Assembly: GCF_000759715.1 (NCBI RefSeq) | Contig: NZ_BBLU01000005.1 | Location: forward strand, 62,001 to 126,000 | Reading direction: 5' to 3' | DNA: 64,000 bases | Source of the DNA: Demequina mangrovi | Lineage (GTDB): Bacteria > Actinomycetota > Actinomycetes > Actinomycetales > Demequinaceae | Translations under genes and position numbers: made by a program | Part shown: piece by piece, positions 729 to 63,484 of the stretch | Layout: every line of letters starts with the position of its first letter | Position numbering within the stretch: the stretch's first letter is position 1 | Notes under the pieces: generated by a model | What the model saw: the letters and a program-made list of their open reading frames with translations, nothing else | Told to the model about the DNA's origin: nothing | The model's database searches: none

Positions 729-829
729 CGATTCCCAATGACACATGTGACGCGTGAGGTTCGCGGGGACGATGCGGCGGTCGCCTTCGGAACATCCGCC
801 CCACGGTGCACGTGTGTCATTGGGAATCG
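729..829. repeat. Intergenic inverted repeat, 21-bp arms
   Basis: Arms at 729-749 (begins CGATTCCCAATGACACATG) and 809-829 are reverse complements with one mismatch in 21, separated by 59 bp. The pair fills the middle of the 304-bp gap between the permease terminator and the galactanase gene, and the spacer contains one copy of the GGACGATGC word (767-775). It could be two operator half-sites, one regulator's sites in opposite orientation, or a small dispersed intergenic element. Nothing else is recognised in this gap except a GAGGGA ribosome site before 966. Confidence 0.7.
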
Positions 830-965
830 CTGGCCGGGACCGGTCACAGAAGTGTCACGATCTTCGCGATTCGCCTCGCGCTCCGCGGCGTCCTGTGCCA
901 GTCTGAGAGCGGTCCCAGCCACCACGGGCTTCCCGCCCGATCAACGACGATCCGAGGGATGAACC

Positions 966-3900
966 ATGCTGCACACCGTTCGTGCCGGCGTGACGGCCGC
1001 CGCCGTCGCCGCGCTCGCGCTGGTCCTGGCCGCACCTGCCGGCGCCAAGCCCCATCAGGACGACGGCCCCGTCGACGCCGAGATCTTCGTCGACAAGGTC
1101 GAGAACCTGCCCGACGGCTTCATGAAGGGCGTCGACGTCTCGTCCGTCATCGCGCTCGAGGAGTCGGGAGTGGTGTTCCGCGACGAGAAGGGCAAGCCGC
1201 GCGACCTCTTCCGGCTGCTCGCGGACGCCGGCGTGACCGACGTCCGCATCCGCGTGTGGAACGACCCGTTCGACGCGGACGGCAACGGCTACGGCGGCGG
1301 CGCCGTCGACGCCGAGCGGGCCGTCGAGATCGGCGAGCGCGCCACCAAGGCGGGGCTCGACGTGACGGTCGACTTCCACTACTCGGACTTCTGGGCGGAC
1401 CCGGGCAAGCAGCAGGCGCCCAAGGCCTGGGCCGACTACACCGTCGAGGAGAAGGCTGCCGCGGTCGAGGAGTACACCGCGGAGACCCTCGAGGCCATGA
1501 AGGCCGCCAAGGTCGACGTGACGATGGTCCAGGTGGGCAACGAGACCAACAACGGCGTCGCGGGCGTCACCGGCTGGGACGGGATGGCGCAGATCTTCAG
1601 CGCCGGCTCGGCGACCGTGCGCGACGTCTTCCCGGACGCCCTGGTCGCGCTCCACTTCACCAACCCCGAGACCGCCGGACGCTACGCGGGCTACGCCGCG
1701 GCGCTCGATGAGCGCGGCGTCGACTACGACGTGTTCGCGAGCTCGTACTACCCGTTCTGGCACGGCAGCCTCGAGAACCTCACCTCGGTGCTCTCGGACG
1801 TCGCGGAGGACTACGGCAAGCAGGTCCTCGTCGCCGAGACCTCGTGGGCGTACACGCTCGAGGACGGCGACGGCCACCCCAACGTCATCGACCTGCCCTC
1901 CGAGGCGACCGCCTACCCGGTGAGCGTCCAGGGTCAGGCGCGCGAGGTCGCGGACGTCATCCAGGCGGTCGCGGACGTGGGCGAGGCCGGCATCGGCGTC
2001 TTCTACTGGGAGAACGCGTGGCTGCCGGTCGGCACGCCCGCGCAGCTGACGCGCAACAAGGTTCTGTGGGAGACCCACGGCTCGGGCTGGGCGTCGAGCT
2101 TCGCGGGGGAGTACGACCCGCACGATGCGGGGGTCTGGTACGGCGGATCCGCGTGGGACAACCAGGCGATGTTCGACTTCGACGGCAACCCGCTGGCCTC
2201 GCTCAACGTGTTCAAGTACGTCGACACGGGCGCCGTCACCGAGCTCGCGATGGAGGCGGTCGGGAACCCCGAGCTGACCTTCCAGGACGGTGAGACCGTG
2301 GTGATGCCCGCGACCGTCGAGGTCAGCTTCAACGACGGCAGCACCGTGGACGAGGCGGTCACCTGGTCCGGCTCCGAGGCCTTCATCTCGGGCCCCGGCG
2401 TCTACACGGTGTCCGGCACCACGGAGGGCGGCTACGCGACGGTCGCGACCGTGACGGTCGAGGCGGAGAACCTCGTGGTGAACGGCGACTTCGAGAACGG
2501 CGACGACGTCTCGCCGTGGTCCTTCGAGGCCGACCCCTGGCCCTCGCAGTTCTGGGTCAAGCAGGAGATCGACTCGCAGAACCTGCGGGGCGAGTGGGCG
2601 GTCAACGTCTACGACGCGGCGGCCTACGAGTTCGAGATGAAGCAGACCGTCAGCGGCCTCGCGCCGGGCGAGTACCACCTGTCCGCCGCCGCACACGGGG
2701 TCGCGGCGTTGAGCCTCAACCTCTACGCCTGGGCGGACGACTCGGCAGGCGGGAGCGCGGACTTCGCGCTCACCGGCTGGGCGGCCTGGGACGAGCCGGG
2801 CTTCGACGTCACCGTCGGCGACTCCGGCGTCCTCAACATCGGGATCTGGGGCTCCGGCGAGGCCGGGGCGTGGGGCTGGATCGACGACGTCACGCTGGTG
2901 CGCGCCGTCGCCTCCGATGTGGACACGTCCGCGCTCGCGACGCTCGCGCACCGTGCCGAGGCGATCGACCGCGACGTCTACACGGACGAGTCGCTCGCGA
3001 TGCTCGATGCGGCCCTCGAGGCGGCGTCGAACGTGCTCGCCTCGTCCCGTCCCGCGCAGGAGGACGTCGACTCCGTGACGCTCGCGCTGCAGGCCGCGCT
3101 CGACGGCCTCACGCTCGAGGACGGCGCGACGCCTCCCGACCCGACCGTCACCCCGGTGGTCGTCGAGGCGGTGCTGGGCGAGGAGATCCCGCTGCCCGCC
3201 GAGGTCACGGTCACCGCGTACGACGGCACCGCATCGTCCGAGCCGGTCACGTGGTCCGACTCGGTCGCGTGGATCACGTCGCCGGGGGAGTACATCGTCA
3301 CCGGCGTCACCGCGGGCGGCTGGACCGCGACGGCCACGGTCACCGTGACGGACGGGCCGCTGCTCGCCAACCCTGGCTTCGAATCGGTGGACGATGCGGG
3401 TGAGCCCGACGTCACCCCGTGGGTGTTCAGCGCCGACCCGTGGCCCGAGACCTTCTGGGTGTTCGCGGACGACTGGAGCGTGATCGGCGAGCAGGGCGCC
3501 AACGTCTGGGACGACGAGCCGTGGGCGTTCTCGATCGCCCAGGACGTGGCCCTGCCCGCCGGCACCTACACGCTCACCGCGGGCGCGCACGGCGAGGACG
3601 TCGCCGAGGCGGATCTCGCGGTGGAGCTGACGGCCACGGTCGACGGCGTCGAGCAGGCGGCGCCGTTCTCCCTCACCGGCTGGGGCGCGTGGGACTACCC
3701 CGAGCTCATGCTCGAGGTGGCCGACGGCGCCGCGGTGACCGTCGGGGCCCAGGGCTCCGGCGGCGCGGGCGACTACGTGTGGATCGACGACTTCGCGATC
3801 ACGCCGGTCGCGACGGCCGTGGACACGGCGGCGCTCGAGGCCGCGGTGGACGAGGCCGAGGGGCTCGACCGCGACGCCTACGACGGCGACGCGCTCGCGG

Positions 3901-62322: not shown

Positions 62323-62340
62323 GCGTGCACGCGTGCACGC
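62323..62340. promoter_or_regulatory. Perfect 18-bp palindrome upstream of urate oxidase
   Basis: GCGTGCACGCGTGCACGC, itself two GCGTGCACGC units overlapping. It is 18 bp before the urate oxidase ATG in the divergent gap to the gene at 62441. Possible operator for a urate-responsive regulator; no regulator gene is adjacent. Confidence 0.5.
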
Positions 62341-62440
62341 GGTGCGAATGCGCCCACGCTAGCCATCGATGGTTTCGCCGGCGTTTCCGCGCATGACGGG
62401 CATATGGCCTGGTGCGGGGTTCCCCGATTACAGTCGCCTC

Positions 62441-63484
62441 ATGGCGGAGGCCTCGGGGGGTTCTCGACGTGCTGCGGTGCGTCCGTGGTGGCAAACCGCG
62501 CTCGTGGGCGTGCTGGCCGCCGTCGGCGTGCTCGCGGTGCTCGTCGTGGCGGTGCCGCTGGGCGCGATCGCCTTCGATCAGCGGTCGAAGGACAACGACG
62601 CGGAGTCGGGCGCGCGTGGGTCCGCCGCCGCGGCCTTCGGCGCGGTCACCGCCTGCACCGCGCTCGCCGTGAGCGAGCTGGCCGAGGGCGCGGGAGGGGA
62701 CGATGCGGCGGTCGCGGCGCGCGCGTGCGCGGAGGGCGAGTCCGGGAGAGGGACTACGGCCGTGCTCGGCAGCGAGGTCGACGGCGGTGTCGCGCGCCTG
62801 ACGATGCGCACCTCGGCGTCGGTCGAGACCGGGGGCGGCACGGACTGGTTCGCGGGCCATGGGAGCGCCGGCGGGTGCTGGCACATGACCCTCGATGTCG
62901 CCGCTCGCACGATGACGGACCTGGCGGACGTGCGGTGCTCCGCCCTCGACGACGAGGACGCCGCCGTCGCGCACGAGACGGGCCTCCTGGCGCTCGACGG
63001 CGATGGCTCGCTCGACCCGCTGACGGCCGCACCCGGGGCGCGGGGAGAGCTCACCGCGCTGTACGTCACGACGGGGGACAGGCTCTGGACGGGGGACATC
63101 GTCGCCGAGATCGACGGCCGGCCCGTGGTCGCCTACACGGGCCCCGCGCCCTTCGACGAGCCTGGCGCATGGGACGACGATGCGCGCATCCCGTACTCGT
63201 GGACCGTGACGCACGGGATGCAGAAGATGCTGGGCGAGCTCGGCTACGACACCGGCGGGATCGACGGTGTCTACGGTTCTCTCACGGCGCAGGCGATCCG
63301 CGACTTCAACGCGGACCACGGCATCGCCGGCGACGAGCTCGACGAGTCGCTTCTCGTGTGGGTCGGCGACGTCGACCGCTCTCTCGACCGCGACCGCGAC
63401 GGCACCGTGGTGACCGCGGTGCTCGCGGAGGTGGGGGACCGGGTCTCGGGCGACGCGCTCGTCGCCCTGGGCCGCACCTCCTGA
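62441..63484 (+). CDS. Membrane-anchored protein with HlyD-like hairpin and peptidoglycan-binding domain
   Basis: 347 residues. One N-terminal membrane helix (ALVGVLAAVGVLAVLVVAVP) follows a short basic cytoplasmic segment. The extracellular part includes a lipoyl/HlyD-like hairpin (TTGDRLWTGDIVAEIDGRPV), a PG_binding_1 domain (MQKMLGELGYDTGGIDGVYG then SLTAQAIRDFN) and a second GDRVSGDALVAL segment near the end. Similar proteins adjoin ABC exporters, but none is here. TACAGT ends 6 nt before ATG 62441 (leaderless geometry). Confidence 0.75.
   Translation: MAEASGGSRRAAVRPWWQTALVGVLAAVGVLAVLVVAVPLGAIAFDQRSKDNDAESGARGSAAAAFGAVTACTALAVSELAEGAGGDDAAVAARACAEGESGRGTTAVLGSEVDGGVARLTMRTSASVETGGGTDWFAGHGSAGGCWHMTLDVAARTMTDLADVRCSALDDEDAAVAHETGLLALDGDGSLDPLTAAPGARGELTALYVTTGDRLWTGDIVAEIDGRPVVAYTGPAPFDEPGAWDDDARIPYSWTVTHGMQKMLGELGYDTGGIDGVYGSLTAQAIRDFNADHGIAGDELDESLLVWVGDVDRSLDRDRDGTVVTAVLAEVGDRVSGDALVALGRTS

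Follow-up and report, generated by a model that had tools for sequence, protein, structure and literature searches.

The stretch analyzed here is a 64-kb segment of the Demequina mangrovi genome (contig NZ_BBLU01000005.1, labelled C29 below, positions 62,001 to 126,000; hereafter the window) in which the nonamer GGACGATGC, a candidate DNA uptake word, recurs on both strands. We found 39 exact copies, 21 on the plus strand and 18 on the minus strand (Table 1). All 37 positions listed in a preliminary description of this DNA are correct, and two minus-strand copies, at 3231 and 10973, had been overlooked. The resulting density is 0.61 per kb, close to the 0.6 first estimated, and 32 of the 39 copies take the extended form GGACGATGCG, in keeping with the claim that most copies are extended. 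Gene calls from our own crude gene finder place 28 copies inside genes and 11 outside, both settings having been proposed. The inverted pair that had been placed at a terminator (61322 and 61380) lies between the convergent gene ends 61315 (+) and 61403 (−), flanked by genes for a ribonucleotide reductase small chain and a uricase-like protein, and indeed folds as one long hairpin at −67 kcal/mol, compared with a shuffle mean of −33.8 (z = −8.7). Folding was done on three inverted pairs only; the other two, L130:4403-4440 and L118:10291-10326, reach −32 kcal/mol (z = −6.6) and −28 kcal/mol (z = −6.0).

The over-representation of GGACGATGC is certain. One hundred dinucleotide shuffles of the window gave a mean of 1.75 copies and a maximum of 5, and Markov models of order 3, 4, 5 and 6 predict 2.3, 4.0, 10.9 and 25.4 copies, the high orders overestimating the expectation because the word's own sub-words enter the model counts; by order-3 z score it ranks first among the nonamers of the window. 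Nor is the excess local, because the whole genome (G000; 2.97 Mb in 33 contigs) holds 1261 copies (619 + 642), or 0.42 per kb. The same word read backwards occurs 15 times in this genome, although this control contains CTA/TAG, which are rare in genomes of this kind, and so flatters the contrast. A 464-kb sample, consisting of the window and 20 further stretches from contigs C29 and C32, contains 210 copies where 16.7 are expected at order 3, a 12.6-fold excess, and where orders 2, 4, 5 and 6 predict 17.0, 28.0, 55.3 and 118.8. On this sample, the comparison with Markov expectation that the preliminary description had suggested comes out in favor of a real excess.

High GC content, and the fact that Asp-Asp-Ala is the most frequent reading of copies co-oriented with their gene, could point to a by-product of preferences in codons, codon pairs or oligonucleotides. 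We called 414 coding sequences in the 464-kb sample, with the same gene finder and no annotation cross-check, and shuffled synonymous codons within each gene. Sixty such shuffles yielded 30.5 ± 4.5 copies with a maximum of 42, and shuffles that also held the initial base of each following codon constant yielded 29.7, compared with 167 observed in genes. In addition, the word is two-fold denser outside genes (43 copies in 52.5 kb, 0.82 per kb) than inside them (167 copies in 411.5 kb, 0.41 per kb), and 96 genic copies run with their gene while 71 oppose it (p = 0.063). With the Markov expectations of orders 2–6 all below the observed 210 as well, we regard the by-product explanation as extremely improbable: the accumulation is not explained by protein sequence, as the preliminary description had argued, nor by codon choice or oligonucleotide composition, and it persists through shuffles that preserve codon use and codon junctions.

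The word has a definite anatomy. The base after it is G in 77% of the 210 copies in G000 and in 69% of 177 copies in another Demequina genome, G022, making a roughly 10-base word. In G022 the motif is longer still, C(-4) n GG GGACGATGC G n n GG n C G, and because it is present in co-oriented copies (72), in copies running against genes (55) and in copies outside genes (50), it is not made by codon periodicity; G000 carries the same flank motif in weaker form. Single-mismatch variants exceed expectation at position 1 (A 4.6-fold, T 3.1-fold, C 2.3-fold), position 2 (C 3.3-fold, A 2.4-fold) and position 3 (C 3.5-fold), are little enriched at position 9 (about 2-fold), and are not enriched in the CGATG core (positions 4–8), except for one cell with 2 copies versus 0.3 expected. 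We therefore describe GGACGATGC as a strict core with a tolerant edge. A word linked to methylation or another modification, like the cyanobacterial HIP1, would also be short, hyper-abundant and spread genome-wide, and the hugely over-represented HIP1 is tied to methyltransferases (PMC4390886). However, HIP1 is the palindrome GCGATCGC, whereas GGACGATGC is not palindromic and has dialects, as described below; moreover, a conserved flank and a strict core with a tolerant edge would be atypical of a methyltransferase site, making this explanation very unlikely. The palindrome GCGATCGC is itself over-represented in the window, with 62 strand counts (31 sites) versus 24 expected, and CGCGATCGC occurs 238 times versus 83 expected in the 464-kb sample of G000.

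Along contiguous DNA the two orientations of GGACGATGC are randomly mixed. The strand ratio is 56:63 on contig C32 (280 kb; runs test z = +1.6) and 47:44 on contig C29 (184 kb; z = +1.0), an assessment that rests on strand order and does not use ori or ter positions, and spacing in these two contiguous stretches is near-exponential (coefficients of variation 1.02 and 1.03). In G022, 400 kb sampled as 20 stretches spanning 1.16 Mb gave 92:85. These ratios speak against the Chi- or KOPS-like word that the preliminary description had offered as an alternative. Chi words are likewise short, very frequent and spread through genes, and a Chi-like recombination hotspot, read in repair by a RecBCD, AddAB or AdnAB helicase-nuclease that then switches its mode of action, could accumulate through recombination bias. 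Chi and KOPS are nevertheless polar along the replichore, KOPS strictly so and towards dif, whereas GGACGATGC is unpolarised in the contiguous stretches and nearly balanced in G022, with 41:25 in a smaller sample from G004; the intergenic excess and the hairpin pairs also suit uptake words better, and we consider a Chi-like role unlikely. Binding by a protein of chromosome organisation, segregation or the nucleoid, as at KOPS, MatS or SMC-loading sites, would account for the genome-wide spread, but MatS- and parS-type sites are few and clustered, and 1261 unpolarised copies fit neither these nor polar KOPS, leaving this role quite improbable.

At least three dialects of the word, sharing a CGA(T/C)GC core, occur within the one genus. 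We counted GGACGATGC (dialect GGAC), GGCCGATGC (GGCC) and GCCCGACGCT (GCCC) in 44 Demequina genomes, with richness thresholds set after seeing the counts. GGACGATGC reaches 929–1864 copies in 16 genomes and 49–275 in the other 28, which again argues against a compositional by-product; GGCCGATGC reaches 718–2018 copies in 16 genomes, with no overlap between the two sets; and GCCCGACGCT is found 908 times in G009, 254 times in G012 and at most 52 times in the other 42. For 15 of these genomes, k-mer screens run on sampled stretches agree with the whole-genome counts. GGACGATGC is the top nonamer in G000, G022 and G004, while GGCCGATGC or GCCGATGC leads in six others, extended by G in G014 and G016, by CG in G015 and G024, by C or T in G008 and by TG in G010. 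GCCCGACGCTG leads in G009, signals are weaker in G012 (GCCCGACGC, 43 versus 9.7), G003, G018 and G021, and the sampled stretches of G001 gave no convincing word. Conservation among relatives, raised in the preliminary description, holds for part of Demequina; outside the genus, 14 genomes from its order contain 36 to 110 copies of GGACGATGC each. A ComEC-alignment scan of named genomes, of which the best 80 loci were kept, included seven Demequina loci, among them the six closest. GGACGATGC occurs there at 0.68 per kb in D. silvatica and D. phytophila, 0.41 in D. lignilytica, 0.32 in D. sediminis, 0.05 in D. aurantiaca and 0 in D. sediminicola; the 12.8-kb D. gelatinilytica locus has 0.08 per kb (1 copy), although the whole genome, apparently G020, is word-rich. 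The 73 non-Demequina loci (1.44 Mb) average 0.026 per kb. When named actinobacterial loci were pooled into 12 groups, the k-mer screens seemed dominated by conserved comEC neighbours and were set aside as uninformative alone.

Judged from gene trees, the dialects largely follow species phylogeny. In a housekeeping tree (rpsD, alaS, mltG and aroE; 20 genomes with the pilus locus sampled), all 7 GGCC genomes fall on one side of a branch (support 100/99) and the GGAC set of 7 can be explained by 2 changes, where shuffling requires a mean of 6.0 and is as low in 0 of 500 trials; the two GCCC genomes, G009 and G012, do not group. One orthologous site can hold each clade's own word. At column 2628 of alaS, GGACGATGC is present in 6 of the 7 GGAC genomes, and two near-sister genomes among the 7 with dialect GGCC have GGCCGATGC; at column 2532, GGCCGATGC is present in 5 of the 7 GGCC genomes, and G012 has GCCCGACGC. 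In a comparison of seven genes, each dialect group carries its own word most often (GGAC 20, GGCC 18, and GCCC 4 in the two GCCC genomes). A Chi-like explanation would need repeated specificity changes in a large conserved enzyme, and such fast dialect change would be unexpected for chromosome-organising sites.

Transformation runs from a type IV pilus through ComEA and ComEC to DprA and RecA, and the com and pil genes that the preliminary description had proposed to look for are present. ComEC matches were obtained in 37 of 39 genomes, including 24 of 25 Demequina (the miss is G005, 85% complete), and all 44 Demequina genomes have a T2SSE match with a best E value of 8e-95 or lower, the weakest of them at a contig end. 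Next to comEC, a looser search pattern detects a ComEA-type helix-hairpin-helix motif in 23 of 26 Demequina loci (some genomes entered twice), and a strict one does so in 9 of 25; the looser pattern was not found in three 3.8-kb loci (G023, G006 and G022). The D. mangrovi genome also encodes DprA, and by Pfam its pilus operon encodes PilB and PilT (T2SSE), PilC (T2SSF), a prepilin peptidase and PilM, together with three prepilins, two above and one below the N_methyl cut-off, the third passing in a longer frame. NCBIfam cut-offs are passed by PilT and PilM and by the prepilin and N-terminal ComEC domains, whereas the equivalog models for PilB, PilC and whole ComEC give strong matches that nonetheless fall below theirs; the labels pilV, pilW, pilX and pilN were assigned by position in the operon. 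A further T2SSE locus (G000:C21) was considered as a Tad system and rejected, as it resembles an extra PilT with no other pilus genes nearby. In G009 the ComEC match (G009:C1:2039413-2040200) is in two overlapping pieces, reflecting perhaps a broken gene or a record error; this genome is rich in its own word despite the split match.

Taking these lines together, GGACGATGC(G) is probably the uptake word of its Demequina species, serving natural transformation, as the preliminary description had suggested by analogy with known uptake words. Copy number, strand balance, distribution in and between genes, hairpin pairs, core, dialects and the presence of com and pilus genes all favor this assignment. 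The uptake machinery would prefer fragments bearing the word. Because transforming DNA would come mostly from dead kin and an imported word-bearing fragment would convert a resident near-match, molecular drive would make words accumulate, and a shift in receptor preference would pull the whole genome to a new dialect. Among the papers listed by a literature search, none reported competence or DNA uptake in Demequina.

Several observations weigh against an uptake word. To look for its receptor, we compared 14 proteins, including 4 housekeeping ones, through their orthologues in 20 Demequina loci, not every protein being available at each locus. G000 and G002 have the same word and 94% identical AlaS, yet their three minor prepilins are 23–33% identical, and G004 and G012 differ in dialect, yet their minor prepilins are 62–80% alike. 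Partial correlations between protein and dialect, given housekeeping distance (16 genomes; 4 low genomes and PilN, which is missing in 3 of 20 loci, were omitted), are positive, the wrong direction, for 9 of 9 proteins. The own genome has only three N_methyl prepilins, all in the type IV pilus operon, as found with a short model that could miss some. Beyond the receptor, none of the three words is abundant in 10 of the 44 genomes, yet each of these has a T2SSE match, and the counts of GGCCGATGC leave no clean gap at the threshold (G022 664, G045 659, G021 584). Wrong-dialect words stand at orthologous sites (11 GGCC in GGAC genomes and 5 GGAC in GGCC genomes), and GGCCGATGC at alaS column 1364 is common to three GGAC genomes (G022, G020 and G006) and four GGCC genomes. 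Close pairs show no clear excess, with 9 and 3 gaps below 100 bases in the two contiguous stretches (12) versus 4.9 and 4.4 (9.3) expected. The uneven ratio in G004 comes from 200 kb (binomial p = 0.064), and the whole genome is balanced at 781:769. Finally, the lowest-GC 5-kb windows (lowest 5% in G000 and G022, lowest 10% in G004) are word-poor, with 4 copies in 12 windows.

A prepilin of the pilus operon acting as a ComP-like receptor should follow the dialect, and it does not, the partial correlations running in the wrong direction; we therefore rejected this candidate, as the dialect is probably not set by the type IV pilus operon. For the uptake word, then, the sequence-level tests hold and the expected agreement between pilus operon and dialect fails. 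The receptor may instead be ComEA, a Tad pilus or a cell-wall protein, or a few residues may suffice, or the word may act at a later step; the last of these is also where a Chi-like word, acting after uptake, would find room. A tree built from PilB, covering 35 of the 44 genomes, requires 5 changes for GGAC and 4 for GGCC, more than the 20-genome housekeeping tree, although the two sets differ, and the extra changes seem to reflect exchange of pilus genes between clades and not species history. The minor prepilins of this operon are hypervariable between near relatives (L241-L260).

Strong preference for DNA with short motifs is described for species of two Gram-negative families, Pasteurellaceae and Neisseriaceae (PMC7811141). 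In Neisseriaceae, inverted pairs of the DNA uptake sequence (DUS) form stem-loops at terminators and dialects follow phylogeny (PMC3630211, PMC12616744). The Demequina word resembles DUS as a short, high-copy word in and between genes, with terminator stem-loops, a strict core and several dialects (PMC3630211, PMC12616744). It differs in its core, which is CTG in DUS and CGA(T/C)GC here (GGACGATGC and its complement lack CTG), and in its host, a monoderm, high-GC member of the Actinomycetota. Furthermore, the ComP tree is highly congruent with DUS dialects (PMC3630211), whereas the Demequina pilus operon does not follow the dialect. The uptake signal sequence (USS) of Pasteurellaceae is also a 9-base word with a conserved flank and a conserved inner core, and has two dialect types (PMC12616744), but its core is GCGG, absent from the Demequina nonamer and its complement, its flanks are A/T tracts where those of Demequina are GC-rich, and its hosts belong to a different phylum. 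Because the cores differ, GGACGATGC is outside DUS and USS proper and would be a separate variant of the uptake-word kind. Among the papers listed by our literature search, which left subscription journals mostly uncovered, none reported uptake words in Actinomycetota; three sources deal with, or mention, transformation in the actinobacterium Micrococcus luteus (PMC8467076, PMC4322843, PMC6370729). When GGACGATGC was searched as a text string, the matches listed were all unrelated by title.

Other words and regions also drew our attention. CGGATGCCG, which has GATGC in common with the Demequina word, reaches 2065, 1879, 1728, 1093 and 375 copies in five genomes of Microbacterium, and 1966 and 933 copies in two of Agromyces (the whole genomes behind L101, L073, L052, L100, L043, L086 and L103), compared with 80 to 133 for the reversed word; a Marmoricola bin has 190 (control 150) and D. 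sediminis 137 (control 54). Locus L101 alone has 18 copies versus 1.8 expected at order 3, and because their flanks differ CGGATGCCG is not a mobile repeat; it is possibly a further uptake-type word. Within Demequina, CGGGGGAG / CTCCCCCG are over-represented in G000 (113 versus 29.0), G022 (106 versus 24.5), G004 (42 versus 11.8) and G024 (11 versus 1.6). AATTCGGCTA and ATTCGGCTAG, with 10 copies each versus about 0 expected in the 400 kb of G022:C11 stretches (L131-L150), are perhaps a small repeat family. In the window itself, positions 54528–61321 form a 6.8-kb, AT-richer stretch lacking GGACGATGC. Foreign origin of such word-poor, AT-rich windows was considered and dropped, this stretch consisting of nrdHIEF and an amidohydrolase gene; strongly conserved genes may exclude the word.

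Table 1. Copies of GGACGATGC and the associated hairpin in the 64-kb window.
Feature	Position	Strand	Evidence
Hairpin, terminator-like; outer stem is inverted GGACGATGC pair	61317..61392	.	folding, −67 kcal/mol
Copy, outside called genes	767..775	+	exact match
Copy, absent from first list	3231..3239	-	exact match
Copy	3389..3397	+	exact match
Copy	3905..3913	+	exact match
Copy	5245..5253	+	exact match
Copy, outside called genes	6604..6612	-	exact match
Copy	6839..6847	-	exact match
Copy	8755..8763	-	exact match
Copy, outside called genes	8970..8978	+	exact match
Copy, absent from first list	10973..10981	-	exact match
Copy	13239..13247	-	exact match
Copy	16609..16617	-	exact match
Copy	17288..17296	+	exact match
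Copy	18839..18847	+	exact match
Copy	20677..20685	-	exact match
Copy	20825..20833	+	exact match
Copy	21961..21969	+	exact match
Copy	23387..23395	-	exact match
Copy	24003..24011	+	exact match
Copy	25658..25666	+	exact match
Copy	27498..27506	-	exact match
Copy	31703..31711	+	exact match
Copy	34184..34192	+	exact match
Copy	36509..36517	+	exact match
Copy	37552..37560	-	exact match
Copy, outside called genes	42994..43002	+	exact match
Copy, outside called genes	43301..43309	+	exact match
Copy	45517..45525	+	exact match
Copy, outside called genes	48122..48130	-	exact match
Copy	48340..48348	+	exact match
Copy, outside called genes	49446..49454	-	exact match
Copy	52611..52619	-	exact match
Copy	53481..53489	-	exact match
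Copy, outside called genes	54247..54255	+	exact match
Copy, outside called genes	54519..54527	-	exact match
Copy, hairpin left arm, outside called genes	61322..61330	-	exact match, folding
Copy, hairpin right arm, outside called genes	61380..61388	+	exact match, folding
Copy	61449..61457	-	exact match
Copy	62698..62706	+	exact match

A wider proposal, which we put forward tentatively and would place somewhat short of probable, is that the monoderm, high-GC Actinomycetota evolved uptake-word systems independently, with at least three dialects in Demequina read by a receptor other than a prepilin of the pilus operon, and with CGGATGCCG as a further word in Microbacteriaceae, and that they reflect a widespread, overlooked sexual isolation. 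As an uptake word, GGACGATGC would provide a third, independent case, from another phylum and from cells that lack an outer membrane, pointing to repeated evolution of such systems. The dialect series within one genus would then be a natural experiment on how a change in receptor taste rewrites a genome. Lastly, the uptake word would predict natural transformability in Demequina and the kind of DNA that these bacteria accept, which would be directly useful for their genetics.

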